Source: Acidobacteriota bacterium (GTDB lineage: Bacteria; Acidobacteriota; UBA4820; DSQY01). Taken from it: DNA of 48,767 nt. This document shows, one piece after another, positions 2,954 to 24,392 of the stretch (its first letter is position 1; every line of letters starts with the position of its first letter). A program made the translations under genes and the position numbers. The stretch is taken from positions 1 to 48,767 of the forward strand of contig JBFMHB010000015.1 of assembly GCA_040752915.1 (NCBI GenBank), read 5' to 3'. The notes beneath the pieces were generated by a model. It did not search any database. It was given only the letters and a program-made list of their open reading frames with translations, and had not been told where the DNA came from.

Positions 2954-4468
2954 ATGCGCCATCTCAAGAGCGGCATCGCCTTCGCCTGGGTCCTTCTCCT
3001 CTTCGGCGCTCTGGCCGGATTGGAGACCCGCGAGAGGCCCGCGCGGCTTCGCATCTTGCATTTCAACGACTTCCACGGGCAGGTGGAACCGGTCGTCTCC
3101 AGAACGGGAGAGGAGTCCGGGGGACTCGCGCGGCTCATCGGTCTGGCGGACGCCCGCCGCGAGGCGGCCCGGGCGGAGGGGGTCGAAACCCGCCTGGTGT
3201 GCGCCGGCGACCTCTTCACGGGAACGGCCTTCTCGACGCTCTTCCAGGGGGATCCCGAATTCCAGGTTCTGCAGAAGGCGGGGCTGTCCGCCCTCACCTC
3301 CGGGAACCACGAGTGGGACTTCGGGGTGGGCACGCTGATGCGGCGCATCACCGGCTCGGGCATCCCCCTGCTCCTGTGCAATGTTTCCGCGGCCGAACCC
3401 TCCCACACCTTCTGGAAACCGTGGATGGTGGCCCGGGTGGGAGGGTTCGCCGTGGGTTTCACCGGAGTGACGACGCCCGAGACGCCGACGACGACGGCCC
3501 CCGGCAACACGGAGGGATTCGCGTTTTCGGACCCCGTTCCGGCCCTCTCGGCTCTCTGTGGTGAGAATCCCGGGCATTGGGATTTCCTGGTGGTTCTCTC
3601 TCACTGCGGGTTCGAGCAGGACAAGCGGATCGCCAAGGAGGTCAAAGGCGTGGGCCTGATCGTGGGGGGACACGACCACAAGGTCCTCGAGACCCCTCAC
3701 GTGGAAAACGGGGTGCCCATCGTGCAGGCGGGGGACCGGGGACGGTTCCTCGGAGAGGTGGAAATCACCCTCTCGGGCGCGTCCGCGCCCGCCGTCACCG
3801 GCCGCCTTCTTCCGGTGACTTCCTCCACGGGGGAGAGCGGGGAGGCGGCGGCCCTCCTCCGGCCGTATCTCGAGAAGGAGGAGGCGGCCCTTGGGGCCGT
3901 CATCGGACGCCTGCCGGAGGCGCTCTCCGGGGACCGGGTCCTCCTGCGCACAGGGGAGGCGCCCCTCGGGGACTTCGTGGCGGACGCCATGAAGGAGGCG
4001 TCGAAAGCCGAGGCGGCCTTCATCAACGGAGGCGCCCTGCGGGCCGGGTTGCCCGCCGGCGGGGTGACCGGGCGGGACCTCTATGCGTGCCTGCCCTTCT
4101 TCGATTCGCTGACCACCGTTCTGCTCACGGGAGAGCAGATCCAGGCCCTTCTCGACCGGTGCGCGTCCATGCCCCGGGAAGACCCGCCGGGCGGTTTTCT
4201 CCAGGTCTCGGGCATCGAGGCCGTCTACGAGAAGGGCGGGGCGCGTTCCATCCGAATCGGAGGCGCGCCCCTTGACCCCGCAAGGGCGTACCGAGTGGCC
4301 TGCACCCAATTCCTCCTCTCCGGAGGGGACGGGCTCGCGGAGTTCAAGTCCGGCCTGGACGCGAGGGACTACGGCGTCAGCCTCCAGGAGATCCTTCGCA
4401 GGGAGCTGGCCCGCCCGGACCTCCGGATCCCGAAAGCGGGAGGGCGGATCGTCCGGGCAGGAGATTGA
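2954..4468 (+). CDS. 5'-nucleotidase / 2',3'-cyclic phosphodiesterase, secreted
   Basis: A 504-residue periplasmic two-metal phosphoesterase that dephosphorylates nucleotides for nucleoside and phosphate scavenging. An N-terminal signal (about residues 1-24, hydrophobic WVLLLFGALAG) precedes the metallophosphatase domain: HFNDFHG (36-42, with D39 and H41), GDLF, GNHEWDFG, LSHCGFEQD and GGHDH. The C-terminal 5'-nucleotidase domain shows INGGALRAG, PFFDSLTTVLLTG and VSGIEAVYE. The start ATG at 2954 follows GTAGGGA. An in-frame upstream start at 2924 adds only ten residues and has no ribosome site. An extended -10 (TGGTACCAT, 2925-2933) lies 20 bases upstream. No lipobox Cys is visible, so it is probably soluble in the periplasm. 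Transcription ends at the hairpin near 4643. Confidence 0.95.
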   Translation: MRHLKSGIAFAWVLLLFGALAGLETRERPARLRILHFNDFHGQVEPVVSRTGEESGGLARLIGLADARREAARAEGVETRLVCAGDLFTGTAFSTLFQGDPEFQVLQKAGLSALTSGNHEWDFGVGTLMRRITGSGIPLLLCNVSAAEPSHTFWKPWMVARVGGFAVGFTGVTTPETPTTTAPGNTEGFAFSDPVPALSALCGENPGHWDFLVVLSHCGFEQDKRIAKEVKGVGLIVGGHDHKVLETPHVENGVPIVQAGDRGRFLGEVEITLSGASAPAVTGRLLPVTSSTGESGEAAALLRPYLEKEEAALGAVIGRLPEALSGDRVLLRTGEAPLGDFVADAMKEASKAEAAFINGGALRAGLPAGGVTGRDLYACLPFFDSLTTVLLTGEQIQALLDRCASMPREDPPGGFLQVSGIEAVYEKGGARSIRIGGAPLDPARAYRVACTQFLLSGGDGLAEFKSGLDARDYGVSLQEILRRELARPDLRIPKAGGRIVRAGD

Positions 4469-4642: not shown

Positions 4643-4675
4643 AAAAGGGAGCGGGGATGCCCCCGCCCCTTTTTT
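4643..4675. terminator. Bidirectional rho-independent terminator
   Basis: AAAAGGG, a bulged A, then GCGGGG pairs with CCCCGCCCCTTTT across a short loop (about 13 bp). A T-run follows on the plus strand and another (TTTTCTTTT) on the minus strand. It sits between the 5'-nucleotidase stop at 4468 and the stop of the octaheme cytochrome at 4696, so it can end transcription from both sides. It is the only classical hairpin-plus-T-run I recognise in the window. Confidence 0.8.
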
Positions 4676-4695
4676 CCTTCGAGGCGGCGCGAGGG

Positions 4696-5976
4696 TTACT
4701 TTTTCGCGTTCCCCTCTGCGTGAGCCTTGCGGATCTGCGCGGCCTCGGCCTTGATTTCCGCAAGATCCCGCTTCATCTCGGCCCAGCCGTACCAGTGCTG
4801 GTAGTCGGGGTTCATGTGGAAGGCGCCCTGGAAGGTCCGCATGCGGTGCTCCATGAGCATGACGTAGAGCTTCTGCTCGATGGGATGCTCCACCTCGTAG
4901 AAGCGCAGAACGTCGACGCTGAAGGGACGGTCCTTGGGTTCGGGCAGAATCCCGTCCCGGTACAGGCCGTACACCTCCTGGATGGCCTGGGCCATGAGCC
5001 GGTCCGCGGCCTTGATGATCTCGTCTCCCTTTTGCAGTTCCTCCCTGGCGAAGGTGGGTCCGTGGCATTTGGAGCACTGTCCGATCATCTGGTCCCTGCG
5101 GGCCTGCCATTCCTCCTTGGTCAGCCGCGCCACGTCGCCGGCCTTCACGAGTTCGAGGCGGGCCGTGGGCTGGCCGTTCTTGTCCAGCACGCCGAGCGCC
5201 TGGAGGATGACGGCTCGGTCGGCCATCCACTCGGGGTCGTCTTCGGGCAGGCGGACGGCCAGAAAGCCCCAGCTCGTCTTCACACCGTGGTCTCCAGAGG
5301 GCATGTGGCAGAAGGCGCACGTGGGTGTCCGCGGCGAGTCTGGGTAGGCCGTGGCGGCCTCCTTGTACCAGTCCTTGATGGGGACCTCCCAGTTGGTCTT
5401 GTGGGCGGTCTGCATGTAGAGGGCGCCATGTTTGCTCGTGGAGTACATCTCCCACTGGGGATGGTCGAAGCCCATGTGGCAGGTGGCGCAGGCCTCGGGA
5501 CGGCGCGCCTCGGCCGCCGAGAACAAATGGCGGGTGTGGCAGGAGTCGCACTTGCCGCCGTCCAGGCCCACCCGGTGGCACCCCCCGCAGCCTTTCATGC
5601 CGTCCATGAGGGCGTGGGGCTGGTCCCCGGTCGTGGGCATGGCGTTCATGGCGACCCACGCCGCGGCGTGCTTGCTCTTCGCGAACTGCCCCGCCTGATC
5701 GGGATGGCACCGGGCGCAGGTCTTGGCGGAGACCGACCGGACGACGCCCTTCGCCTCGCAGGCGCCGGTCTTTGAGGCTGGATCTCCCGTCAGGTGGCAC
5801 TCGGCGCACGTGACCTCCCCCGCCGCATGCTTGGAGAGCTTCCAGTCGCGAAGGGCGCTTCCCGTGATGCCTTTGGCGGTGTGGCATCCCACGCAGTCGG
5901 GCCCATCGGCGGCGGCCGTGGAGAACGCCGCGAAAAGCCCCAGCAGGACGGTGAAACGAAGCCATTTCTTCTTCAT
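4696..5976 (-). CDS. Octaheme cytochrome c of the hydroxylamine oxidoreductase (HAO) family
   Basis: A 426-residue secreted cytochrome. A signal peptide (about 1-23) precedes eight CxxCH motifs at residues 28, 57, 87, 130, 143, 163, 220 and 301. The pattern WKLSKHA, then TRHLFSAAEARRPEACATCHMG and DHPQWEMYSTSKHG, then a late HMNPDYQHWYGW block matches HAO-family octahemes. Family knowledge: classical HAO oxidises hydroxylamine at a P460 heme cross-linked to Tyr, whereas HAO relatives lacking that Tyr in ammonifiers are thought to work reductively on hydroxylamine or nitrite. I cannot assign the cross-linking Tyr without an alignment. The start ATG at 5976 has GGGAGG just upstream. It is last in the nrf/nor cluster, 47 bp after nrfA, so a reductive role beside NrfHA is inferred. 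Confidence 0.85.
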   Translation of the reverse strand: MKKKWLRFTVLLGLFAAFSTAAADGPDCVGCHTAKGITGSALRDWKLSKHAAGEVTCAECHLTGDPASKTGACEAKGVVRSVSAKTCARCHPDQAGQFAKSKHAAAWVAMNAMPTTGDQPHALMDGMKGCGGCHRVGLDGGKCDSCHTRHLFSAAEARRPEACATCHMGFDHPQWEMYSTSKHGALYMQTAHKTNWEVPIKDWYKEAATAYPDSPRTPTCAFCHMPSGDHGVKTSWGFLAVRLPEDDPEWMADRAVILQALGVLDKNGQPTARLELVKAGDVARLTKEEWQARRDQMIGQCSKCHGPTFAREELQKGDEIIKAADRLMAQAIQEVYGLYRDGILPEPKDRPFSVDVLRFYEVEHPIEQKLYVMLMEHRMRTFQGAFHMNPDYQHWYGWAEMKRDLAEIKAEAAQIRKAHAEGNAKK

Positions 5977-6023
5977 CGAAGCCTCCCTATGAACCCCAGC
6001 GGACGCCCTCCGCGCCCGCTTTC

Positions 6024-7424
6024 TCACGGTCTCGACGCGGCCAGCTCGGCGGCCTTGGCCTGGCCTTGCCGCGCGTAATCGATGGCCTCCCCGAGGATCC
6101 TGGCGGCCTCCTGAGGCGCGTGGAACCCCATGGAATTCTCGGAGGACACAAAGTCGATGCGCCACTGGGCCTTTCGCTGTAGATCGAGGACCGGGGCGAG
6201 GTCGGCGGGGGTGGCGCCCCCGGCCTGGGCGGCGCGGACGGCGTCCAATTGGTCCATCAAAGCCGACGCGGCCCGCTGGAGAAGCGCGTGGTTCCTTTCC
6301 TGGATCAGGTCCACCCGGGCTCGGATTTCCGCCTCCGGGTAGCGGTGACAGGGTTGGCAGGCCCGCGATATGGACTCGTCGTTGACGAGGGGGCTGCGCA
6401 CCCAATGGTCCGAGATCTTGAGGGCCCCCTGACGGACGTAGGGCATGTGGCAGTCCGCGCAGGCGACGCCGGAGCGGGAGTGGATTCCCTGATTCCACAT
6501 TTCGAACTCCGGGTGCTGGGCCTTGAGGGCCGGGGCTCCCGTCTCCGCGTGGGTCCAGTCCTTGTATCCGGCCTCGTCGTAGTAGGCCTCGATCTCCTCG
6601 ACCCGGAGGCCCTTGTGCCAGGGGTAGGTGAGGGTCTTCCTCTCGCCCTTGAAGTAGTACTCCACATGGCACTGCCCGCAGACGTACGAGCGCATTTCCT
6701 GTCGTGTGGCATCCCGGTTGGGGTCGTAGTCCGCGATGCCCTGGGAGGCCTTCAGGGCCCGGATCCCGTTCAGGAACCCCGGGCGCGTGACGCGCAGTTC
6801 CATGCTCTTGGGGTCGTGACAGTCCACGCACGACACGGGGTGGCGAACCAGGGCCTTCCCCGATTCGTCCTTGAAATCGTGTGCTTGCTGGTAGGGCATG
6901 GCGCAGACCTCTTCGAAGCCCTTCATGACGTCCCCGTTCCCCACGTGGCGGTAGAGGGGGATGATGGAGGCATGGCAGTGGAGGCATGCTCCGGGCTGGG
7001 CCTTTTTGGTCACCCTCTCGGTGTGTTCCTGGTCGAAAAGCATGTAGGCGTGCCCTCTCCGATCGCGGTAGTCGATGGAGAAGGCGTATCCGTCGTACAT
7101 GCGCTTGAGCCAGGGGTCGCGCTCCAGCTTTTGGGCCGGCATGGCCTCGCTCCCGCCGAACTTCGTCCGCGTGGCGTCCGCCGTCCGTTTGTAGGCATCG
7201 AACTGCCGGGGCCAGTTCATCCCCCAGGTCTCCGGATCGGTCGTTTCCTCCGAGACCTGGACGAGTTTGAGATACGGGTCCTTCGCCTCCTGCTTCCTCT
7301 CGAATATGTTCACGAGAAGGGCCGTGACGACCGCGCTCGCGACGGCTGCCGCCACGGCGACCGCCGTGAAGAGGGCCCATCTCCCCCCGGACTCCTTCCA
7401 CCAACCCGTCCAACCCGGCGCCAT
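6024..7424 (-). CDS. nrfA: Cytochrome c nitrite reductase catalytic subunit, CxxCH type
   Basis: Periplasmic pentaheme enzyme reducing nitrite to ammonium with six electrons (EC 1.7.2.2), in complex with NrfH. 466 residues with an uncleaved N-terminal membrane helix (about 16-40). Heme motifs are at C147, C199, C249, C322 and C356. The active-site heme motif is CLHCH (147-151) rather than the classical CxxCK, so a His would be the proximal ligand. Catalytic features are kept: VEYYF (254-258, active-site Tyr), QHPEFE (His304) and the TYPWHKG...EAYYDE block. The start ATG at 7424 is preceded by GGAGGCGGAGG. It lies 117 bp downstream of nrfH. CxxCH NrfA variants are known in some lineages, so this is a natural subtype and not a defect. 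Confidence 0.95.
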
Positions 7425-7541
7425 CCTCCGCCTCCTTGGCCGGCCCCGGGCCTCTCCGGGACCTGGCGGCCCTTAGACTTTCCGAACGAGGCTGTCAACC
7501 GTTCTGGGTCTCCCGTTTCCCTCTTCCAGCGATCCCCCTCT

Positions 7542-8015
7542 TCAGCGTACCGGACCGTGGCCCACGTCGGCGTGGCAGTGGACACACCGCACGCCCCCCG
7601 CCCGGGCGGAAGCGCTCGCCACGAGATCGTGAACGAGTTCGCCGTGGCACCGCACGCAGTTCTCTTGAAGGATCCCGGCGTTCTTCTCCTTGATGCGGAT
7701 GGGCTCGTGGAAGTCCTGGAGGGTGAATCCGCGGGAATGGTGATACCCGTTCTCCGCCTTGGCGAGGTATTTTTCCACAAAGCCGTGGGGCAGGTGGCAA
7801 TCCACGCAGGCCGCCGCCCCGTGGTGTCCCGATTTCTGCCAGGAATCGAAGGAGTCGTTCATGATGTGGCAGTTCCGGCAGGCGGCCGGGTCCTGGCTGA
7901 AGTAGGAGAGGCCCTCGGCGTAGCCGAAGGTGAAGAATCCGACGCCCGCCGCGACGCCCACGAGCAGGGCCGCGACCCAGAGTGGGGACGGCAGGTTCGG
8001 AATGCCGCGGGTCAT
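7542..8015 (-). CDS. nrfH: Tetraheme quinol dehydrogenase of the NapC/NirT family (NrfH)
   Basis: Membrane-anchored electron donor that passes electrons from the quinol pool to NrfA. 157 residues: one N-terminal transmembrane helix (about 12-30), then four CxxCH motifs at residues 46, 70, 120 and 144 in a short periplasmic domain, as expected for Nrf[15 protein letters not shown] resembles the first-heme region of the family. It lies 15 bp downstream of the outer-membrane barrel gene and 117 bp upstream of nrfA, in the same direction, so co-expression with nrfA is very likely. Confidence 0.93.
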
Positions 8016-8030
8016 GGGGGCCTCCTTCGG

Positions 8031-9329
8031 CTAGTATGCGAGAGCCACCTGCACGTACGCCAGACGGCTGGGATCGGGCCCCCGGACGGCCTTCGCGAAC
8101 TCGCCGGGATCGTACTGGGAGACGCCGGCGAGCCATTTCACCGAGGGCCGCGTCTTGAAGCCTCCCGAAACCGCGAGGTCCACCTCTCGACCCACGCGGC
8201 CGCCGGAACCGCCCGAAGGATCGCGTCCCATCAGGGCCCCTCCCGCGGAGGTCCAGGAGGCGGTGGGGGAGTCGAGGCGGAAGTCGTGGACCTCCACCTC
8301 AAGGCGCACCTTCTCCCGGATCAGGACCGAACCGAAGATCTTGACCTCGCGAAGGTTGCTCCAGTTGTGGTAGTCCATGAGGCCGTACTTGTTGTGATTG
8401 GTGGGGAAGAGGTTGTCGAAGGAGCCGGATCGGCCGTCCAAGGGGTCCTCGTCGCCGGAGGCGCGGTTCCATTCGGCCCCCAGGGCGACGCCGGCGTCCG
8501 AGGGAAGGGTCCAGGTCACCCGGAGCGACTGGGCATCCGCCCGGTGCCGGTCGGGGCCCCGCTCTCCCGTCTGCCACGCGGATTCGAGTGCGAGCTCCAG
8601 GCCCGCCCCAGGCGCCCAGAGAAGCCGGCCCCCGTAGGTCGGGATGCGGCTCCTGAACTCCCCCCCGAGCTCGCCGGGCGTGCGTCCCCCGTCCCGCTTG
8701 AGAAGCAAGTAGGCCTCCGCCTTCAGGTCCTTGCGGTCCTGGAGGAACCCGGCGTAGAGACCGGAGAGCGTCTGGTCCGGCGTGTCCCCGAGAAGAGGCC
8801 TTCGCCTGGCCCGTGCGAGAAACGCATCCAGAAAGACGCCGCTCGATTCGAAACGGACCTTGGCGGCGTCGAAGGAGCGCCCGACGTTCGACCATCCGAA
8901 GGCTCCCACGAGACGTTCCTCGCCGTAGGAGAGTTCCTGGCGGCCCAACCTGGTGGACAGGCCTTTCACGCCTCCGAGACCCCGAACCTCCACATAAGCC
9001 TGACGGAGATCGGAGTGCCGGCCGGCGATCTTGGCAGGGACGGCGTCGGCGCCCCAGTGACGGCTGTCCTGTCCCTCCGCAAAAATCCTCAAGGACGTGC
9101 CGAACCGAAGGTCCAGGCCGGCCCGAAAGCGGTTTCCCACAAAGGCGTTGCGGTCCTCCGCTTCCTTCTGGAAGTCCGCGTCCTCTCGGATCTCCCAACG
9201 GGCCCTTTCCTCCAGGAGGAGGGAGAGGGACCCCTCTCCGCCTTCCCAGAGTGGAAGGCCCTGGGCCTTTGCCGTGAGCGCGACCCACAACCAGATGGCT
9301 CCGACCCATCCCCTCCGTACCCATCCCAT
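8031..9329 (-). CDS. Alginate-export-family outer membrane beta-barrel (porin-like)
   Basis: 432 residues with a signal peptide (about 1-22). The mature protein is rich in alternating beta-strand patterns, contains the LRQAYVEVRG and TRLGRQELSYGEERLVG type motifs of the Alginate_exp fold, and ends in an aromatic residue (VALAY), the usual outer-membrane insertion signature. The start ATG at 9329 has GGGAGGC seven bases upstream. No alginate synthesis gene is nearby. It sits inside the nitrite/NO reduction cluster, 52 bp after the cupin gene and 15 bp before nrfH, so I infer a role in letting small nitrogen solutes or another anion cross the outer membrane. The substrate cannot be read from the sequence. 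Confidence 0.8.
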   Translation of the reverse strand: MGWVRRGWVGAIWLWVALTAKAQGLPLWEGGEGSLSLLLEERARWEIREDADFQKEAEDRNAFVGNRFRAGLDLRFGTSLRIFAEGQDSRHWGADAVPAKIAGRHSDLRQAYVEVRGLGGVKGLSTRLGRQELSYGEERLVGAFGWSNVGRSFDAAKVRFESSGVFLDAFLARARRRPLLGDTPDQTLSGLYAGFLQDRKDLKAEAYLLLKRDGGRTPGELGGEFRSRIPTYGGRLLWAPGAGLELALESAWQTGERGPDRHRADAQSLRVTWTLPSDAGVALGAEWNRASGDEDPLDGRSGSFDNLFPTNHNKYGLMDYHNWSNLREVKIFGSVLIREKVRLEVEVHDFRLDSPTASWTSAGGALMGRDPSGGSGGRVGREVDLAVSGGFKTRPSVKWLAGVSQYDPGEFAKAVRGPDPSRLAYVQVALAY

Positions 9330-9381
9330 GGCATGCCTCCCTCGTCCAGCACGCCCGACCGGGGGCGGGCGCGATGCCGCC

Positions 9382-9729
9382 CTAGGATCGCAGGGTCGCC
9401 AGCGGCCTTTCCTTGACCAAGGTCAAAAGAAAGACGAACCGTCCGGCCGCCTGGACGGCGTGAACGAGCCCCTTGGGCATCACGTAGACCGAGCCGGGGG
9501 CCGCTTCGTGGTCTTCGTCACCGAGCCGCACGGTGGCCTTCCCCTCGACCACGTGGATCACCGCTTCGAAGGGGGCCGTGTGTTCCGAGAGGGTCTGTCC
9601 CTCCTCAAAACAAAAGAGCACCAGTTTGAGGGCCGGCGAGTCGTAGAGGGTCTTGCTGACGATCCCTCGCTCGGCGAACTGAATCTGCCGGGTCAGGTCC
9701 TGGGCGATGGGGGTCAGGGATTCGGTCAT
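9382..9729 (-). CDS. Small single-domain cupin protein
   Basis: 115 residues forming one cupin beta-barrel: LSEHTAPFEAVIHVVEGKATV is followed by PGSVYVMPKGLVHAVQA, the two cupin motifs. The first motif has only one clear His (SEHTAPFEA) and the second ends in GLVHAV, so a metal site is possible but reduced. Small cupins often accompany nitric oxide and nitrite genes, where their function is not settled. The start ATG at 9729 has GGAG nearby. It follows the NO reductase gene after 60 bp containing a GC hairpin, and precedes the barrel gene. Confidence 0.75.
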   Translation of the reverse strand: MTESLTPIAQDLTRQIQFAERGIVSKTLYDSPALKLVLFCFEEGQTLSEHTAPFEAVIHVVEGKATVRLGDEDHEAAPGSVYVMPKGLVHAVQAAGRFVFLLTLVKERPLATLRS

Positions 9730-9752
9730 GGGGTCTCCACAAGAAAGAAGCA

Positions 9753-9778
9753 GGCCGGGGTCAGGTGGGGCCCCGGCC
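9753..9778 (-). other. Intercistronic GC hairpin between the NO reductase and cupin genes
   Basis: GGCCGGGG and CCCCGGCC form a perfect 8-bp stem around a 10-base loop. On the minus strand it is followed by a pyrimidine-rich TTCTTTCTT but no true T-run. It could act as an attenuator, a partial terminator or an mRNA-stabilising 3' end that makes the reductase more abundant than the downstream genes. Confidence 0.5.
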
Positions 9779-9789
9779 CGCTTCGGGGT

Positions 9790-12096
9790 TCAGTGGGCAT
9801 GGACGGTCTTTTGGGCGTCTTCTGGGCGCTCCTTCAGGATTCCGGCCACGGCGAGGATCCCGCCGATGGCGAAGGGTACGGCGCCCGCGAGGAGCAGGGT
9901 CGCGTCTCCCGCGAGGCGGATCCACTCCGTGGTGTGAAAGAGCCCGGTCATCGTGAATTCCACGCTCCGGGCGTGGGCGTACCCGTTGAGCACCACGTCA
10001 TAAAGCTGCAGAACGCCGGCGGGGAAGAGGTTCAGGACGATCATGAGGCCCAGCCCCGCGTTGAGTCCCCAGAACCCGGCGCGGATGAACTTCTCGGCGC
10101 GCCCCCAAGCCCCGTCGGAGGCAAGGGCCCTCAGGCAGTAAGCGAGGACCGCGAGGGCGAGCATCCCGAAGACCCCGAACATGGCGGCGTGTCCGTGGTT
10201 CGGCGTCAGGGTCGTGCCCATTTCGAAGTAGGAGACGATGGGCAGGTTGATGAGGAAACCGAAAACCCCCGCGCCGAGGAAGTTCCAGAATCCCACGGCT
10301 ATGAGGAACATGACCGCCCATTTTTGCTTGAGAGCGAGGGGTTTCCCGCAGTCGGCGCAGGGCGCCTTTTGAAGTTTGAGGAAATCCCATGCGTCCAGCG
10401 TGAGGAGCGTGAGGGGTACCACCTCCAGGGCGGAAAAGCAGGCCCCGATGGCCATGGACGCGGCCTCCTGCCCCGTGAAGTACCAGTGGTGCGCCGTGCC
10501 CGCGATTCCGCCGGCGAGGTAGAGGATGGCGTCCAGGTAGATGACCCGGCTCGCCGTGACCGCTCGGACGAGTCCCATGTGGACGAACATGAGGGCGACG
10601 AGGACCGTGGCGAACAGCTCGAAGAAGCCCTCCACCCAGAGGTGGATGATCCAGAAACGCCAATTGTCGATCACCGCGAAGTTGGTTCGCGCGCCCCAAA
10701 GGAACGCCGGGAGGTAGAAGATCACCACGGCCACGGAAGCGAAGAGGAAAAGGCCCGCCAGCTCTCTTTTGCCCTCGTCGCGGAAGGCGGGAAGCAGCGC
10801 GCGGACCATGAGGAGGAGCCAGAAGACGAGCCCGGCGGCCAGGAGGATCTGCCAAAAGCGCCCCAGGTCCACGTACTCCGAGCCCTGGTGTCCGAACCAG
10901 AACCACACCTCCCCCAGCCGGTTGTTGATGCCCAGGTACTCCCCGAAGAGGCTTCCGAACACGACGACCGCCAGGGCGCCCAGGAGGGCGAGCGCTCCCC
11001 ATTTCTGTCCCTTCGGCTCCTGGCCGCCGAGTAGGGGGGCGAGAAAGAGGCCGCCGCCCACCCAGGCCGTGGCGATCCAGAACACCGCGAGCTGGAGGTG
11101 CCACGTTCGGGCGAGGTTATAGGGGAGGAGGTTCGCGAGGCTGTACCCGTAGAAGCCCTCGGGCTCGACACGGTAGTGGGCGAGGGCCCCCCCCAGAAAG
11201 ACCTGGAGGAGAAAGAGGAGAACGACCACGAGAAAGAAGAGGGCGGTGATCCGCTGGCTCGGCGTGAGGGCCGTCGCCTTGGGCAGGCTCAGGTGGGCGG
11301 GCCGTTCCCCCGCGTCGCCCTTCCACCCCAGGAAGTCGAACTTCCCGAAGACGAAGAGGACGGCTCCCAGGCCGCACAGGAGGAAAACGAGGCTCACGGC
11401 GCTCCAGAGGATGGCCTGGGGGGTTGGGGTGTTTCCGGCCAGGGGATCGTAGGGCCAGTTGTTCGTGTAGGAATAGGTACGCCCCGGCCGGCTGGCTCGT
11501 GTGGCCCAGGAGGACCAGGCCAGGAAGGCCGTGAGCGCTCTGGCCTCGTCGGCGCCCTTGAGGTAGGAGGCGGGCAGGCCCGGAGCGCCCTTGGCGAGGT
11601 AGTCCGCCCACTCGGACTGCTGGACGGCGAAGCTCCGTGCCTCCCCTGCGGTGTACAGAAGGACGCCCGTCGCGGCGTCGTAGCGGTTGGTCTTGAGGAC
11701 GTCCTTTACCTCGGCGAGCACGGCACCTCTTTGGGTGTTATCCAGGGCCTTCGCGGCCATGTCGAACCGCGAGGCGGCCAGGGCGTCCCGGGTGATTTCC
11801 GCCTCGCGGCGGAGGTAGGCCGCCGAGTAGTCCGGTCCCAGGTAGGCTCCGTGACCCCAGAGCGATCCGTGTTCCATGAGGCCGTACTTGAAGAAGACCT
11901 CCTGGCCTTTCCCGACGTCTTCGGCCGTGTACAACACCGCGCCTTGTTCATCCACCACCCGGGAGGGGATCGGGGGGGCATTCCGATAGGTTTGAAACGT
12001 CAAGAATACGAGGATCGAGAAACCGAAAATCATGACGCCGAGGGCGGCTCTTCGCCACCAAGGCGACAGCCTGGCCGGGGTTCCGGGTTCGGACAT
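9790..12096 (-). CDS. norZ: Quinol-dependent nitric oxide reductase, single-subunit (qNOR/NorZ type)
   Basis: Inner-membrane heme-copper-superfamily enzyme reducing 2 NO to N2O with electrons from quinol. 768 residues. The N-terminal helix and periplasmic domain resemble the fused NorC-like part but have no CxxCH heme motif, which marks the quinol type. The catalytic core has about 13 helices with ligands in WHLQLAVFW (heme b His), HLWVEGFFE, HHWYFTG (FeB His pair) and TPNHGHAAMFGVFG. An unusual CADCGKP (C-x2-C) occurs in a polar loop between core helices. The start ATG at 12096 has GGGAGG upstream. A 13-bp palindrome lies 46 bases before the start. Likely role: NO detoxification or respiration alongside NrfHA. 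Confidence 0.95.
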   Translation of the reverse strand: MSEPGTPARLSPWWRRAALGVMIFGFSILVFLTFQTYRNAPPIPSRVVDEQGAVLYTAEDVGKGQEVFFKYGLMEHGSLWGHGAYLGPDYSAAYLRREAEITRDALAASRFDMAAKALDNTQRGAVLAEVKDVLKTNRYDAATGVLLYTAGEARSFAVQQSEWADYLAKGAPGLPASYLKGADEARALTAFLAWSSWATRASRPGRTYSYTNNWPYDPLAGNTPTPQAILWSAVSLVFLLCGLGAVLFVFGKFDFLGWKGDAGERPAHLSLPKATALTPSQRITALFFLVVVLLFLLQVFLGGALAHYRVEPEGFYGYSLANLLPYNLARTWHLQLAVFWIATAWVGGGLFLAPLLGGQEPKGQKWGALALLGALAVVVFGSLFGEYLGINNRLGEVWFWFGHQGSEYVDLGRFWQILLAAGLVFWLLLMVRALLPAFRDEGKRELAGLFLFASVAVVIFYLPAFLWGARTNFAVIDNWRFWIIHLWVEGFFELFATVLVALMFVHMGLVRAVTASRVIYLDAILYLAGGIAGTAHHWYFTGQEAASMAIGACFSALEVVPLTLLTLDAWDFLKLQKAPCADCGKPLALKQKWAVMFLIAVGFWNFLGAGVFGFLINLPIVSYFEMGTTLTPNHGHAAMFGVFGMLALAVLAYCLRALASDGAWGRAEKFIRAGFWGLNAGLGLMIVLNLFPAGVLQLYDVVLNGYAHARSVEFTMTGLFHTTEWIRLAGDATLLLAGAVPFAIGGILAVAGILKERPEDAQKTVHAH

Positions 12097-12141
12097 GGTC
12101 ACCTCCCAACGGAGTGGCTTGAAATCCGTGTCAGGTCTTTC

Positions 12142-12154
12142 TGAGTTGTACTCA
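12142..12154. promoter_or_regulatory. 13-bp palindrome upstream of the NO reductase gene
   Basis: TGAGT-TGT-ACTCA is a perfect 5+3+5 inverted repeat in the 70-bp gap between the hemerythrin and NO reductase genes. It resembles an FNR/DNR-family dyad (TTGA...TCA) but is one base too wide for the usual FNR spacing. Candidate internal operator. Confidence 0.35.
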
Positions 12155-12166
12155 AGGCGGTACGCC

Positions 12167-12778
12167 TCACGCCCGGCCTGGACAGCCGAAGCAGGAGGAT
12201 GCTTCCGATGCCCGTGCGGGGTCGGGAGGGTACAAGGAGCCGAGCCTGTCCGCCAGGGCAAGGAGGCGTTGGTGCTCGCCCTCTGCCACGGCTTCACGCT
12301 CGAAAGTCCTGTAGGACTCGGCGAGCGAGTTGAGTTCGTGGAGGGGGAGGGCCTGGAGCGCCATGGGGTAGAGGATGTTGTCTTCCTTGAGGATGTGTGC
12401 CCGGAGGAGGGAGACGTACCGGCCCACGGCCTCCGCGACATCGCTCCGTTCCTCCTCCGCCAAGGGGCCCGAGCCATCTCCGGCGCGAACGAATGCGGCC
12501 ACGCATGCGCGTCCCTCCACGTGTTCGGAAAGCATCACCGCGATGGGGCCGACTTCCGTGGGGAACCCTCCCTCGGCCATCTTCGCGAAAAGCCGATCCT
12601 CCTCCTTTCCGTGATGGCAGCGGTCCGCAAAGAGGCGAAAGAATTCCCCGAACCCTCGGACGGCCTCCCGCTCCTTCGGAGACGGGGAGCCAAGGGCCAG
12701 AGCGAAGGTCTCGAGGGATCCGAGGACCTTTTCGATGATTCGGTGTTCCTCCATCAATTCAGCGATGGCACGGTGCAT
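12167..12778 (-). CDS. Hemerythrin-like domain protein (NO/Fe-S repair type)
   Basis: 203 residues forming one HHE/hemerythrin four-helix bundle that should bind a di-iron centre: EEHRIIEKVL near residue 10, then HHGKEEDRLF, SEHVEGRACV and HILKEDNILYP supply the His/Glu ligands. Proteins of this type (YtfE/DnrN relatives) protect or repair iron-sulfur centres under nitric oxide or carry O2/NO. The C-terminus ends in a CFGC pair close to the last residue, which may bind metal or be redox active. The start ATG at 12778 has AGGAGG 5 bases upstream; the upstream in-frame start adds ten residues and has no ribosome site. It lies between the Rrf2 regulator and the NO reductase gene, which fits an NO response. 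Confidence 0.88.
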   Translation of the reverse strand: MHRAIAELMEEHRIIEKVLGSLETFALALGSPSPKEREAVRGFGEFFRLFADRCHHGKEEDRLFAKMAEGGFPTEVGPIAVMLSEHVEGRACVAAFVRAGDGSGPLAEEERSDVAEAVGRYVSLLRAHILKEDNILYPMALQALPLHELNSLAESYRTFEREAVAEGEHQRLLALADRLGSLYPPDPARASEASSCFGCPGRA

Positions 12779-12791
12779 GGGGACCTCCTGG

Positions 12792-12806
12792 GGTCCTGAC
12801 AGGACC
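12792..12806. promoter_or_regulatory. 15-bp inverted repeat before the hemerythrin gene
   Basis: GGTCCT-GAC-AGGACC (6+3+6, perfect) starts 14 bases upstream of the hemerythrin start and partly borders its ribosome site. It could be a regulator operator or a small hairpin affecting translation. Confidence 0.35.
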
Positions 12807-12865
12807 AATGGATGCGCGTATGCGTTGATGAGGAAAAAAAAGAGGGGGGGGAGGAAGGCGGGTGT

Positions 12866-13303
12866 TCATGGGCGGTTTGGATCGATGGATCCGGTCTGGG
12901 CGGCCTGGGCCGGACCATGGAGATCCGCGATCCTGGTGGCCTGCATCATGGCCAAGTAGGTGGATTGGATGCTCTCCCAGTAGGTATGCAATGGGCAGGG
13001 ATTGTCCTTGTCGCATCGGGCCAGTCCGAACAGGCACTGGCCTTCGGCGCGGGGCCCGTCAAAGACCTCCAGCACCTCGAGGATGGGATGCCCTTCCGCG
13101 CCGGGGGCGAGGCGAAATCCGCCGCCCCACCCTTTCTGGGAGAGCACGAAGCCGCGCTTTCGCAGCTGATTGAGAATTTTCGAGAGGTAGTTGGCGGGGA
13201 TGCCCGTATCCTGTGCAATGTGAACGCCTTGAACCCAGTCCCCCGGACGGGAGGCCAGGTGTCCGAGAATGCGCAATGCGTAGCGGGACGTCTGAGAGAG
13301 CAT
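12866..13303 (-). CDS. Rrf2-family regulator with Fe-S cysteine triad (NsrR/IscR-like)
   Basis: 145-residue winged-helix repressor or activator. The N-terminal MLSQTSRYALRILGHLA and the HTH IAQDTGIPANYLSKILNQLR (29-48) are typical Rrf2 DNA-binding features. Three Cys at 90, 97 and 103 (C-x6-C-x5-C) match the cluster-binding loop of NsrR/IscR, one residue wider than the common C-x5-C-x5-C. Family knowledge: the cluster reacts with NO in NsrR, releasing DNA. Heading the nitrogen-oxide cluster, it most likely controls those genes and itself. The start ATG at 13303 has GAGGTGGTGAG upstream. A near-consensus promoter with an overlapping inverted repeat precedes it. Confidence 0.9.
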   Translation of the reverse strand: MLSQTSRYALRILGHLASRPGDWVQGVHIAQDTGIPANYLSKILNQLRKRGFVLSQKGWGGGFRLAPGAEGHPILEVLEVFDGPRAEGQCLFGLARCDKDNPCPLHTYWESIQSTYLAMMQATRIADLHGPAQAAQTGSIDPNRP

Positions 13304-13317
13304 CTCACCACCTCACA

Positions 13318-13331
13318 GCATGAGTATATGC
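13318..13331. promoter_or_regulatory. Candidate Rrf2 operator overlapping the -10 element
   Basis: GCAT-N6-ATGC forms an inverted repeat covering the -10 box of the Rrf2 gene promoter. A repressor bound here would block polymerase, so autorepression is a reasonable inference. Its GCAT/ATGC arms loosely resemble NsrR-type half sites. Confidence 0.4.
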
Positions 13332-13351
13332 GGTGATGCCGAGAAAGTCAA
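13323..13351 (-). promoter_or_regulatory. Sigma70-type promoter of the Rrf2/nitrogen-oxide cluster
   Basis: TTGACT (13351-13346), a 17-base spacer and TATACT (13328-13323): 5/6 matches in both hexamers at ideal spacing. The predicted start point lies about 12 bases before the ATG at 13303. It could drive all eight genes down to 4696. Confidence 0.7.
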
Positions 13352-19280: not shown

Positions 19281-22200
19281 ATGAACGCGGTTGCCGGTGT
19301 TCGCCGCACCATTGCGGTTCTGGGCGCAGCCTTTGCCTTATGCGCGGCCTCCCGAGCCCAGGTGCCCGGGGAGGCTTGGGAACGCATCGCCGTATTGGGC
19401 CACGACGTGAAGTGCCTGGCCTTCAGCCCCGATTACGCCAACGATCGGACGATCTTCGCCGGCACGGGCGGAATGGGGGTCTGGCGCTCCCAGGACGGGG
19501 GAGACACGTGGGTGAGGAACGGAACCGTGTACCTCGCCACGTCCATCGTGACCGATTTGGCGATTTCCCCAAACTACCCTAACGACCCCACCCTTTACGC
19601 CATCACGGAATCAGGCAATGTCTTCGTCAGCACGAACGCCGACCTGTCGACATGGTCCTTCACCATCTCCCTTCCAGCCCCTGGGCTGGACGCCCGGGGA
19701 ACCAGCCTCGGCATCAGCCCCGATTATGCCTCCGACGGCACGGTCTTCGCCGGGTACGACGGGGACGGACTGTATATCACGAGAAACCGAGGATCCAGCT
19801 GGACCCAGGACACAGGGAGCCTCTCCCGCCTGATTCGATTGCTCGACATCGCCGTGGACCCCAATTTCGCCACCACCGACGAGGTGATCCTGGGCGGGGT
19901 CAGCCAGGACGGGTGCCTCTACCGTTGGGCCTCGGGGGTCTGGACCAAGATCAATGGAAGTCTGGGTGACGGGGACGGGGACACGATCACGACCGTTCGC
20001 TATGAGGGCAACGGGCGGATCTGGGTCGGCACCAAGAACAACGGGGCGTGGCATCGGCTGGGTTGGAGTTCGGGGTGGGCGGCCTGCTGGGACGGGGTCA
20101 ATACAAACGACAAGCCGGCGGTCCTCAGCCTGGACCGGGTCGGCGGTTCGGCCCCAAAGTTCATGGAGGGCAGGGGCGACTCCCTATTTCAATCCTCGGA
20201 TGCGAGCGGGTACGGGACCTCCTGCTCGCTCTACGATTCGGCCCATCCGGTTCAGGTCTGCCGCTTCGAGCCCGGATGGAACGGGACCACCTCGTGCACC
20301 GTCTTCATCGGCACGCCCCATGGTCTGCTTCGCAAATCCTGCGCCTCGAGCCCCGTCAAGACCACGACGGACCGCATCGACGGATGGGCGGTGGCCAGAG
20401 CACCGGGGGGCACGGCCCATTTCATGGGCTCCAAGGGCCAGGGGCTCTTCAAGCACGTGGCCGGAACCAACATGGTCCGCTACAACAACTTTCCCAACAA
20501 GCAGATCCCCGAGATCACCGCCATCTGCCTGGATCCCCTCTACGACGAGGTGGAGGGGTACTCGGACGGAGACTGCGTGCAGGACCGCTCGGTCCTCTTC
20601 GTGGCGGCCAATTTCACGCGGGCGCCCTGGGACAACGGGGTGTACAAATCCTCCGATTTCGGAAACACGTGGACGAAATTGGCAACGGGTTGGCCCACCT
20701 CGGCGATCACGCTCTATGATCTCGCCATCTCCCCGAATTACAGGGAAGGAGGACCCGATACCACGCTCTATGCCGCCACCTCCATCGGAGTCTACCGGTG
20801 GAACGGGCCAAGCACGGGATGGAGCTACCAATGGCGCCCTCTCACGGTCACGCCCGTCTATCGGGTCGCGGTGCCGCCCCTGTATAACCGCTACGGGGCT
20901 TCGGGTTACGCCTACCACGGCGTCTTCGCCAGCACCGACAACGGCGCGGGAGACAACGAGATCTGGTTCTCCGACGACGACGGAGTGACCTGGGAACAGG
21001 TCGGCTATCCCGGCACGACCCGCGGCCGGGTGACGGGCTTCGCCTTCGACGGGAACTTCGGGGGATCGGGTTCTCCGTCCACTCTGGTGGTGTCGGCCGT
21101 CCCCACGGACCCCGTGCATATGGGGGGGGTCTTCACGTCGAACCGATCCGGCGGCGGTTGGGGGGTATGGTCCTCCATCACGCCGGGCTCCGGCAGCTCC
21201 AGCGTCGTCTGGGATGTTTCCACGGAGCCGACCTACCTTCCCACGGACCTGAGCCGCCGCCATCTGGGCTGCGCCACCAACGGCGGTGTCTACTTCTCCG
21301 ATGACGCCGGCGCCTCCTGGAGCCGAAGAATCTCCTCGGGAGGTTTTTCGGTCCAGTACGATCGGTCCGACTCGGCGGGCCAGAACGTGGTGGTCGGCCT
21401 CCAAACCCTCGGGGCGCGCCTGACCGATGACGGCGCGTCCAGCTTCACGGCCTTCACGGGCTACCACTACCTCCCCGACGACGTGTGGGCTACGGTGGCC
21501 CATGACCGGGACCCCAACGTCCTCTTCTCCTCCTCCCCCTCCATGGGCGTCTTCGTGAGCGAGGACAAGGGCATCTCCTACCGGCCCTGGAACCGGCGGC
21601 CTCCGGGGACCACCGCGGGGCCCTGCGTCCTGCGTTCTGGGCTGGGACTGGCCATGCTCACGGACCGGCGCAACGGGACGGGTCTCGACATCGTCTGGGC
21701 GGGGACCGTATCAGAGGGCATCAAGGCCCGGTACATCTACTACGACAGCACGACGGGAAAGATCGACCTGGAGACGGAGAACGGCACGGCGCCCAACGGT
21801 TGGCGTCACAACACGTGGTACAGCGACAGCAGCCAGATCACGGGGAGGTGGGAGCGCATCGAGGTGGTTCCCGGAACGGCGGACGAGTATCCCGTTTGGG
21901 CCTCCAGCCAGACGGGCGCCTCGGCGGCCCAGGGCATGGCGGCCCTCCCCGCGGGCCCGTGGTGGAGCCAGTGGCGGGCCCAGAACACGGGCCTGCCCTC
22001 CCTCGAGACCCGCGGCATGCGCCAGGGATACGGCGAACCCGACCCCATCCCCCTTCTCGACGGACAGACGGTGGGAGGGGAGGTGGCCTACACCCGGTGG
22101 GACTACTACTCCATCAATGTCCCTTCGGGCGCGGACGACCTTGGCATCTTTCTCAACGATCTGGACGACGGGGGGCCCCAGGACCCGGACCTCTACGTGC

Positions 22201-24392
22201 GGTTCGGAGGCCTGCCCACCACCAACACCTGGGACTTCCGGCCGTACGTCAACGGCGACGAGAGCGTCTGCGTGACCGATTTCACCCTCGTGGATGAAGA
22301 CTTCAATGGAGCGTGGGGCACCTACGGGAGCAATCCGCCCCCGGGATGGACCATCCTCGACGGAGGTGACGAGGCGACGCCGACCTGGAATGCCAACGAC
22401 TGGCACAAGTACTACAGGGCGGACGGGTACGGATACGCGGCCCGCGTCTACTGGAGTCCCCTGGAGCACCAGGACGAGGAACTCATTACGCCTCCGTTCG
22501 ACATCCCCTCGACCGCGGGGGCCGTGAATCTGGAATTCGACCATTTCTTCAACCACTGGGACACGGCGTCGTACGAAACCTGCACCGTGAGGTACCGCTC
22601 GGACCAGCACCCCTCCTGGATCACCCTGGCCACGTACACCAACGACACGCCCGACATGGATCACGTAACCCTCTCCCTCCTGGCCTACAAGGGAGACACG
22701 AGCGCCCAGATCGGCTTTCGCTACTACGCATACGACGGGTACTTCTGGCAGGTGGACAACGTTCGCGTCAGCGGGACCCACCTGAAGACGGGTACCTGGT
22801 ACCTGGGCGTGCGGGGCTACTCTTCGGGCACGAGCCCCTACGAACTCACGGCCACCCTGAACGCCGGGTGCACGGCGGCGCCCGAAGGGGCGGCGCCACA
22901 GGGGGTGGGGAAGGCCCCATCTCAGGCCGTTTCCCCGGAAGGAGGCGTGGATCCCAAGGCGCCGACGGGCAGAGTCATCTGGGGGACAGTCAATGGCCCC
23001 TCAGGCGGAGTGTACGTGGGCACGGGCGACCCCTCCGGCACCGTCACCTGGGAGGCCCGGAACGGGGTGCCCCCCAACAATCTGACCAACCTGTCCGCCC
23101 AGACCGTCTACCAGCTCACGGACCTGACCCTCATCGCGGGGTGCGCCGGCGACGTTTTCTACTCCCCCTCGCCCGACGAGGGCCTCACCACATGGGTCAA
23201 CGCCACCTCCCAGATGGCCTCCCCGGGCTCCAACGACTTCCGGGATCTCCTGGAGGCCTCCAACGGCGATGCCCTCGTGGCGGCCCACGGCGTGGGCACG
23301 GGCACCAGCGCGGGAGGAGTCTGGCTCAGCGGGGACAAGGGGGCCCACTGGATGCGGCTGAGCCAGGGCTTCGACGCCGACAAACAGCTCCTGACGGACC
23401 TCATGGCCGATTCGGGGACTCCGCCCCAGTATTACAGCTCCACAGACGGGACGGGGGTGTACTCCCGCACCATCACGGCCCAGCCCTATCCCACCCTAAC
23501 CGACGTCACTCCCGCCTCGGGAAGCCCCGACGGGGGGACGGAGGTCACGATCACAGGAACCGGCTTCTCCACCGAGTGTCCGACGGGCACGGCCTCGGAC
23601 TGCCCCGATTCCACGCCGGTGGTCCTCTTCGGGGATACGGAGGTCTCGGCCACTTACGTGAGCGCCACGGAACTGCGGGCCGTGGCACCCGCCCACGCCG
23701 CGGGCGCCGTGACGGTCCGGGTGCGGAACCCCGACACGCGCCGCTCGGTGTCCGGCAGGGCCTTCACTTACGCCTGTGAGGCGCCTTCCGGAATGGCCAA
23801 CAACACGGCGGTGGACGTAAACGCCTACGCCGACACGGGTGTGCGCGTCTCCTGGACCGATCCGGCGGCCTGGAACGACGGCGGATCGGGAACCCGGAGC
23901 TTCGCTGTGTACCGGAACGGGGCCCTCCTCCAGGGAGGGCTTTCGTCGGGCACCCATGAATGCACGGACCTGACGGGGATGAACGGGGTATCCTACAGTT
24001 ACACCGTTCGAGCTTCCAACGGATGCGGACTCTCGATCGCCACCGCCGGGGCCGCTGCGGCGGACCAGTTCCTGGTCCCCGAGGAGGTCCCGGACACCTC
24101 CTTCCTGTGGGCCGCGGGAACTTCAGACACCCTGACTTGGAGCGCCGCCACGGGGGCGACCTCCTACCGGGTTTACCGGGGCGACGGGGCCGACGTGGGG
24201 GACCTTCCCACCGGCGCCTCGGCCTGCCTCGCTTACGAAGGGACGGAGACCACCACCGGCGCGCTCATTCTCGCCGAACCTCCCGCCGGGCAGTTCTACT
24301 GGTACCTCGTCGTCGGCGTCAACGGAGCGGGGGAGGGAAGCGCAGGCATGTCGAGGACGATCGTCTCGTCGGGGGCCTGTGCCTCACCGTGA
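19281..24392 (+). CDS. Giant secreted protein: beta-propeller repeats, split PPC domain, IPT/TIG and FN3 domains
   Basis: 1703 residues. A signal peptide (about 1-32, cut near ASRA-Q). Residues about 35-900 hold sortilin/BNR-like propeller repeats of the form SPxYxxDxTxFAG followed by a Ser/Asp-rich GVYxSxDGGxTW strand. About 925-1000 is the first half of a bacterial pre-peptidase C-terminal (PPC) domain, about 1003-1160 an inserted jelly-roll like the cleaved-adhesin/MAM type (DFNGAWGTY, PPGWTILDGG), and about 1160-1193 the second PPC half (GTWYLGVRGYSSG). A second short propeller region follows, then IPT/TIG (about 1401-1497) and two FN3 domains to the end. The start ATG at 19281 has GGGGAGGGG upstream. 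No protease catalytic domain, lipobox or sorting tail is seen. Probable cell-surface or secreted adhesin/binding protein. Confidence 0.85.
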   Translation: MNAVAGVRRTIAVLGAAFALCAASRAQVPGEAWERIAVLGHDVKCLAFSPDYANDRTIFAGTGGMGVWRSQDGGDTWVRNGTVYLATSIVTDLAISPNYPNDPTLYAITESGNVFVSTNADLSTWSFTISLPAPGLDARGTSLGISPDYASDGTVFAGYDGDGLYITRNRGSSWTQDTGSLSRLIRLLDIAVDPNFATTDEVILGGVSQDGCLYRWASGVWTKINGSLGDGDGDTITTVRYEGNGRIWVGTKNNGAWHRLGWSSGWAACWDGVNTNDKPAVLSLDRVGGSAPKFMEGRGDSLFQSSDASGYGTSCSLYDSAHPVQVCRFEPGWNGTTSCTVFIGTPHGLLRKSCASSPVKTTTDRIDGWAVARAPGGTAHFMGSKGQGLFKHVAGTNMVRYNNFPNKQIPEITAICLDPLYDEVEGYSDGDCVQDRSVLFVAANFTRAPWDNGVYKSSDFGNTWTKLATGWPTSAITLYDLAISPNYREGGPDTTLYAATSIGVYRWNGPSTGWSYQWRPLTVTPVYRVAVPPLYNRYGASGYAYHGVFASTDNGAGDNEIWFSDDDGVTWEQVGYPGTTRGRVTGFAFDGNFGGSGSPSTLVVSAVPTDPVHMGGVFTSNRSGGGWGVWSSITPGSGSSSVVWDVSTEPTYLPTDLSRRHLGCATNGGVYFSDDAGASWSRRISSGGFSVQYDRSDSAGQNVVVGLQTLGARLTDDGASSFTAFTGYHYLPDDVWATVAHDRDPNVLFSSSPSMGVFVSEDKGISYRPWNRRPPGTTAGPCVLRSGLGLAMLTDRRNGTGLDIVWAGTVSEGIKARYIYYDSTTGKIDLETENGTAPNGWRHNTWYSDSSQITGRWERIEVVPGTADEYPVWASSQTGASAAQGMAALPAGPWWSQWRAQNTGLPSLETRGMRQGYGEPDPIPLLDGQTVGGEVAYTRWDYYSINVPSGADDLGIFLNDLDDGGPQDPDLYVRFGGLPTTNTWDFRPYVNGDESVCVTDFTLVDEDFNGAWGTYGSNPPPGWTILDGGDEATPTWNANDWHKYYRADGYGYAARVYWSPLEHQDEELITPPFDIPSTAGAVNLEFDHFFNHWDTASYETCTVRYRSDQHPSWITLATYTNDTPDMDHVTLSLLAYKGDTSAQIGFRYYAYDGYFWQVDNVRVSGTHLKTGTWYLGVRGYSSGTSPYELTATLNAGCTAAPEGAAPQGVGKAPSQAVSPEGGVDPKAPTGRVIWGTVNGPSGGVYVGTGDPSGTVTWEARNGVPPNNLTNLSAQTVYQLTDLTLIAGCAGDVFYSPSPDEGLTTWVNATSQMASPGSNDFRDLLEASNGDALVAAHGVGTGTSAGGVWLSGDKGAHWMRLSQGFDADKQLLTDLMADSGTPPQYYSSTDGTGVYSRTITAQPYPTLTDVTPASGSPDGGTEVTITGTGFSTECPTGTASDCPDSTPVVLFGDTEVSATYVSATELRAVAPAHAAGAVTVRVRNPDTRRSVSGRAFTYACEAPSGMANNTAVDVNAYADTGVRVSWTDPAAWNDGGSGTRSFAVYRNGALLQGGLSSGTHECTDLTGMNGVSYSYTVRASNGCGLSIATAGAAAADQFLVPEEVPDTSFLWAAGTSDTLTWSAATGATSYRVYRGDGADVGDLPTGASACLAYEGTETTTGALILAEPPAGQFYWYLVVGVNGAGEGSAGMSRTIVSSGACASP

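Follow-up and report, generated by a model that had tools for sequence, protein, structure and literature searches.

The window analysed here, 48,767 nt of contig JBFMHB010000015.1 (assembly GCA_040752915.1) from an Acidobacteriota bacterium (UBA4820; DSQY01), carries eight minus-strand genes, read from position 13303 to 4696, for an Rrf2 regulator, a RIC-like hemerythrin (Hhe), a quinol-dependent nitric oxide reductase (qNOR; NorZ), a cupin, an Alginate_exp-type porin, NrfH, NrfA and an octaheme relative of hydroxylamine oxidoreductase (HAO), here termed octaheme A. With a probability of about two in three, the locus is one transcription unit, an Rrf2-controlled nitrosative-stress operon that protects the cell from nitrogen oxides and possibly lets it respire them, and it probably senses and destroys both nitric oxide (NO) and nitrite. 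Comparison of sequences from relatives indicates that the first part of the locus is conserved as an operon, and that the reductase genes behind it form a cassette that can be exchanged.

An earlier note on this DNA had grouped the eight genes as a nitrogen-oxide cluster lying between one near-consensus promoter and one bidirectional terminator. Coordinates and a family match have been obtained for every one of them, and these matches uphold the assignment to nitrogen-oxide families; the genes also share a promoter that is kept in relatives. The seven intergenic gaps measure 87, 70, 60, 52, 15, 117 and 47 bp in operon order, which reproduces the range of 15-117 bp given before. The promoter, TTGACT-N17-TATACT, is the sole one of its kind between positions 3000 and 15000 (shuffled sequences give 0.5 expected), and an alignment of upstream regions shows that the TTGAC and TATA boxes ahead of rrf2 are kept in family members. 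At the other end, the terminator stem at 4669-4648 is richer in G-C pairs than any other of the stretch; a weaker stem lies on the plus strand at 4651-4666. The features of the locus are as follows.

13323..13351, minus strand: sigma-70-like promoter TTGACT-N17-TATACT, 10/12 consensus
13312..13336, minus strand: predicted Rrf2 operator TCACCGCATATACTCATGCTGTGAG, an imperfect inverted repeat overlapping the -10 box
12866..13303, minus strand: rrf2, Rrf2-family regulator, predicted local autorepressor (PF02082, 96 bits; TIGR00738 above cut-off)
12167..12778, minus strand: hhe, hemerythrin-like di-iron protein with a RIC-like ligand set (PF01814, 67 bits)
9790..12096, minus strand: norZ, quinol-dependent nitric oxide reductase (PF00115, COX1, and PF22085, NorB cytochrome-c-like; 185 and 184 bits)
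9382..9729, minus strand: small single-domain cupin (PF07883, Cupin_2, 41 bits)
8031..9329, minus strand: porin, outer-membrane channel of the Alginate_exp family (PF13372, 177 bits)
7542..8015, minus strand: nrfH, tetraheme quinol dehydrogenase of NrfA (TIGR03153, 172 bits, cut-off 134; four CXXCH)
6024..7424, minus strand: nrfA, pentaheme ammonia-forming nitrite reductase of the CXXCH type (PF02335, Cytochrom_C552, 431 bits)
4696..5976, minus strand: octaheme A, 426 aa, HAO superfamily subclade A, predicted reductive (eight CXXCH; Multi-haem_cyto, 129 bits)
4648..4669, minus strand: intrinsic terminator, a 9-pair stem with 8 G-C followed by CTTTTCTTTT

Gene order at the same site in relatives

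Gene order was compared with that of 100 relatives (genomes with G numbers), and octaheme neighbourhoods were compared across 80 GTDB loci (L numbers). Neither collection contained a second genome with exactly these eight genes, and the idea of a conserved eight-gene module was therefore rejected. Conservation of the gene order, which the earlier note had proposed as a check, turns out to be divided: Rrf2-Hhe-NorZ-cupin is kept at the same site in several genera, but porin-NrfH-NrfA-octaheme occupies the slot after the cupin in the window's genome only, relatives having OCC2, porin-OCC2 or octaheme A. OCC2 is the other octaheme of the HAO superfamily present at this site; it forms a separate clade of the tree, and among solved structures its top match is 4qo5, described as a 'hypothetical multiheme protein'.

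Within the family of the window's genome, the order Rrf2-Hhe-NorZ-cupin-OCC2 is present in G001, G004, G005 and G008, and also in G007, where it is split over two contigs. G003 has Rrf2-Hhe-(DUF6448 protein)-cupin-porin-OCC2 without NorZ, and its porin, 55% identical to that of the window, stands in the same place, ahead of OCC2. The DUF6448 protein of this genome (L160:8413-9048) is secreted and takes the norZ place between hemerythrin and cupin. G006 has Rrf2-Hhe-NorZ-octaheme A; within the family, this is the only other genome with an octaheme of the window's subclade (75% identity), and the two proteins are sisters in the tree. Other families show Rrf2-Hhe-NorZ-cupin (G184), Rrf2-Hhe-NorZ (G355), DUF438-hemerythrin-Rrf2-NorZ-cupin (G084) and Rrf2-NorZ (G206). 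Many closely related norZ genes occur by themselves. The position of the cupin directly after norZ is shared by G001, G004, G005, G008, G084 and G184.

The surroundings of the operon are also held in common. On the upstream side, the window shares with G001, G004, G005 and G007 the MoxR/VWA genes that stand ahead of rrf2. On the downstream side, the window has a metallo-beta-lactamase-fold gene that also comes after OCC2 in G001 and G005, and G001 and G004 retain a 5'-nucleotidase remnant. Such shared flanks on both sides mean that the same chromosomal operon is present with a different 3' end. A trace of exchange is visible in G006, where cupin-like start codons are joined to the last 47 OCC2 codons directly before octaheme A (L111:7180-7364), and where the 149 bp that close the OCC2 gene of G008 are matched at 131 positions (88%). 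Judged by this likeness, the stretch is the scar of an OCC2 deletion. OCC2 would have come first and would later have been replaced in the window lineage, because it is spread over six genomes of the family and octaheme A over two. Variation of the 3' reductase at one site suggests, in turn, that the reductases are alternatives under one switch.

NrfA occurs once in the window's genome and in no other examined family member among the 100 relatives searched. The NrfA tree places the window sequence among those of Acidobacteriota, without settling its exact place or fixing the donor of nrfHA. A recent foreign origin of nrfHA and the octaheme gene was considered on compositional grounds and left no sign, as G+C at third codon positions (GC3, 0.85-0.88) and tetranucleotide use equal those of the flanks. 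Elsewhere in the window, positions 19501-24000 have the tetranucleotide use farthest from the window mean (L1 distance 0.27-0.28, compared with 0.13-0.20 in other parts).

Rrf2 and its candidate operator

The Rrf2 protein (P0001) carries three cluster cysteines, CLFGLARCDKDNPC, in the arrangement CX6CX5C; a His stands two residues beyond the third Cys-X2, and the same Cys spacing recurs in Rrf2 genes near octahemes elsewhere. It fails the curated NsrR model (NF008240, 33 bits for a cut-off of 182) and lies far below the cut-off of the IscR equivalog model. Sensing of NO is thus a presumed property of this regulator.

A palindrome, TCANNNCATATACTCATGNNKTGAG, overlaps the -10 box of the rrf2 promoter. 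Alignment of the regions upstream of rrf2 yields one motif, a TTGAC-N17-TATA box inside the palindrome TCANNNSATATNHTCATGNYKTGAG, and in G008 the palindrome is exact: TCAAGACAT-ATACTC-ATGTCTTGA. The motif is kept upstream of rrf2 in G001 and G003-G008 within the family and in G084, G184 and G206 outside it, and the window's genome holds one match at up to three mismatches, with none for the reversed control. Kept ahead of rrf2 both inside and outside the family, and single in the genome, the palindrome is the strongest candidate for the operator that Rrf2 would bind.

Matches with 0-2 mismatches in the family have three settings: ahead of rrf2, in the rrf2-hhe gap of genus g4, and at one extra place in G003. 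The second copy of genus g4 has two mismatches and follows a T run (L111:4136-4160, L157:4508-4532); its counterpart in the window, at about 12800-12845, is degenerate. The extra site of G003 (L219, G003:C51:2030-2054 region) is followed by an rrf2 copy with a broken frame, a c-type cytochrome with one heme and a nosZ of the Sec type, which ties the site to nitrogen-oxide genes.

Predicted roles of the encoded proteins

The hemerythrin has the residues H12, H56xxxE60, H86 and H128xxxE132 kept in eight aligned proteins and, by analogy, these four His and two bridging Glu would be the ligands of the iron site. PF01814 was the only domain matched, a family-profile search finding no ScdA_N, and the curated RIC/YtfE model TIGR03652 was not passed (22 bits vs 205). 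The closest solved structures to NorZ are qNORs, aligned from end to end (E 3e-167), with the FeB His and Glu ligands in register within the WVEG, HH and FSALE motifs; NorZ contains no CXXCH, its N-terminal cytochrome-c-like domain being devoid of heme c. As for NrfA, the catalytic Arg, Tyr and KAQH His align with those of Wolinella NrfA, and five CXXCH motifs are present. The CXXCK motif of the catalytic heme is missing from this protein, which has CLHCH at the first heme instead, and CXXCH likewise occurs in 14 of 14 aligned NrfA sequences from relatives in the phylum. A CXXCH-type NrfA is known in Campylobacter, and NrfA enzymes also reduce hydroxylamine.

Octaheme A belongs to a family in which, across 45 homologs, Asp171-His172 is invariant and the eight CXXCH and a loop, NPDYxxWYG, are nearly or fully so. 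The catalytic Asp-His follows the catalytic heme and structures of the HAO family are matched; the first match of the family profile is 6h5l, the Kuenenia reducing HAO-like (HAOr) complex, which is also closest in a fold search with a model of the protein (mean pLDDT 79). The position of the Tyr that forms the P460 cross-link in HAO is taken by a variable His394 in the N. europaea alignment and by Trp395 in the gap-free HAOr alignment. Next to it lies an invariant Tyr396, which aligns with the cross-linking Tyr only in the alignment with Kuenenia HOX (4n4j). On balance, these alignments lean towards absence of the cross-linking Tyr, and octaheme A is predicted to be an HAOr-like reductive enzyme with a presumptive nitrogen-oxide substrate. 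Statements on HAOr made here as background rest on PMC12758564 and PMC8940962.

In other phyla, the octaheme A family often adjoins Rrf2, hemerythrin, Alginate_exp porins, NrfHA or a second octaheme (L069, L072, L095, L098, L105). Thus, L072 has porin-NrfA-NrfH-Rrf2...two octahemes-Hhe, L069 has porin...Rrf2...Hhe-octaheme, and L095 and L098 have NrfH-NrfA-octaheme. In Gammaproteobacteria/Sedimenticola and Deltaproteobacteria (L039-L046; L044:6814-11206, L039:4778-5116), genes for GlnK, AmtB, a Rieske protein and cytochrome b directly precede an octaheme of the window's subclade, a set that could possibly form a quinol-linked system that generates, or uses, ammonium.

In the operon as a whole, Rrf2 with its predicted iron-sulfur cluster would bind the palindrome over its own -10 box and repress transcription until NO or nitrite damages the cluster, which may bring about derepression. 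At the inner membrane, NorZ would then use quinol to convert NO into N2O, the hemerythrin might repair or buffer iron or NO, and the cupin may act as a helper of unspecified role. The porin would admit nitrite or similar small molecules; NrfH would pass quinol electrons to NrfA for the formation of ammonium from nitrite, NO and hydroxylamine, and octaheme A, as a periplasmic reductase, would remove nitrite or one of the reactive intermediates, NO or hydroxylamine.

The rest of the genome bears on this scheme. A family search did not detect Hcp in it, so that removal of hydroxylamine would fall to NrfA or the octaheme. No molybdopterin-type nitrate reductase was detected in it either, the sole Molybdopterin-domain match being NuoG; with no Nar/Nap-type match, nitrite apparently comes from outside and not from the cell's own nitrate reduction. 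Tandem multicopper-oxidase-like genes of the same genome (G000:C8:48432-51502) were considered as possible NirK genes and set aside, since their sequences resemble other multicopper oxidases; no NirK model was applied to them. The 'self-contained module' of the earlier note is thus upheld in part: it is a group of nitrogen-oxide genes under a shared and conserved promoter, but its self-sufficiency is limited by the apparent lack of Hcp and of a Nar/Nap supply of nitrite, and its 3' end is not kept.

A nitrosative-stress operon is preferred over a dedicated respiratory one because the conserved part is the NO part, the regulator is local, and the Rrf2-RIC-cupin grouping has a precedent in Thermus. 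Several points weigh against the stress-operon reading as a whole. The 117-bp gap before nrfA and the degenerate operator-like stretch after rrf2 leave room for internal promoters; the Cys spacing (X6, X5), the lack of the NsrR Asp and the position outside the NsrR model leave the signal of Rrf2 open; and the octaheme A family sits mostly outside nitrogen-oxide operons in GTDB genomes, so that context does not fix the substrate of the enzyme. That the operon is mainly one of energy-conserving ammonification, with NrfHA and the octaheme respiring nitrite from neighbours while NorZ, Hhe and Rrf2 clear leaked NO, is unlikely. NrfHA is the standard respiratory pair and the only NrfA of the genome, a porin is at hand for uptake, and nitrite would have to be external in the apparent absence of a molybdopterin-type nitrate reductase; however, relatives keep the NO part without NrfHA, and local Rrf2 control of a single site is more like that of stress operons than respiratory control.

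The conserved catalytic Asp-His of the HAO superfamily, and the Tyr396 that adjoins the cross-linking place and coincides with it in the 4n4j alignment, would also suit an octaheme that oxidises hydroxylamine to NO in the manner of HAO/HOX, with NorZ consuming the product. This is very unlikely in view of the Trp and the variable His394 found at the position in the other two alignments, of a reducing HAO as the closest structure, of a recent phylogeny by which a reductive role is predicted for most HAO-like proteins outside anammox (PMC12758564), and of a locus that offers no AMO as a source of hydroxylamine. It is harder still to believe that the eight genes are neighbours by chance or through mis-assembly of a metagenome-type genome, with Rrf2-Hhe-NorZ-cupin as the only unit. 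The exact set is indeed found once and NrfA is missing from the rest of the family, but spacing is tight on one strand, the GC3 of nrfHA and the octaheme gene equals that of the flanks, the orthologous operon has the same flanks at either end, and a porin already follows the cupin in G003, as octaheme A follows NorZ in G006. Returning to the stress operon, a broader and rather unlikely proposal is that octaheme A forms ammonium by reducing nitrite, NO or hydroxylamine, takes the place of Hcp and has been mobilised between quinol-linked partners, namely NrfH-NrfA under an NO-responsive Rrf2 in the window, and its own Rieske/cytochrome b beside GlnK-AmtB in Sedimenticola-type and deltaproteobacterial genomes. 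The 3' end of the operon would then be an exchange slot for HAO-superfamily reductases under one conserved operator.

Comparison with known systems

Environmental genomes often encode HAO-like octahemes to which no role has been assigned, and both the direction of their catalysis and their physiological task are debated. The locus and its relatives place two different octahemes and NrfHA in one slot of an NO-linked operon, which makes that role testable, and the predicted operator, already linked to nosZ in one relative, can be used to find further members. A targeted search of an open-access subset of the literature did not find the exact gene set.

The nic cluster of Thermus thermophilus has NsrR-NsrS-NsrT (Rrf2, RIC fragment and cupin) beside norCB/nir, and thus also groups an Rrf2 regulator, a RIC-type iron protein and a Cupin_2 protein with an NO reductase; it differs in its ScdA fragment in place of a hemerythrin, its cNOR and its NirS-type denitrification, and has no NrfHA, porin or octaheme (PMC5748679). 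In D. desulfuricans, a cupin gene and the neighbouring-numbered hcp are strongly induced by NO (PMC5701242). The nor-ytfE (norA, dnrN) sets controlled by NsrR or NorR likewise put an NO regulator, of the Rrf2 type or another, over an NO reductase and a hemerythrin-like repair protein (Rodionov et al. 2005, PMC1274295), whereas the regulator of the window falls outside the NsrR equivalog, its operator is unlike the published gATGyAT-N5-ATrCATc, and NrfHA and an octaheme are included.

For the octaheme, the nearest solved relative is the nitrite-reducing Kuenenia HAOr complex kustc0457/0458 (6h5l), with which it shares the length of the loop that bears the cross-linking Tyr in HAO; identity is about 24% over the fold match, no partner gene of the kustc0457 type is present, and the operon is different. 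The haoCA reverse-HURM ammonification proposed for Campylobacterota such as Nautilia (PMC3701875) also combines an octaheme HAO relative with a quinol-oxidising protein of the NrfH/NapC type for nitrite reduction, but it works without NrfA and uses Hcp, while the window has NrfA and Hcp was not found in its genome. Acidobacteriota nrfHA operons (G009, G020, G026 and others) have the same NrfH-NrfA order and a CXXCH-type NrfA with 55-65% identity, but without Rrf2, NorZ or an octaheme alongside. Each part of the locus is known and each pairing has a precedent, and the published sets that were found do not combine them all; what is new here is the conserved predicted operator, the finding that relatives have the operon at one chromosomal site, and the swap of its reductase genes, which has left a scar in G006.

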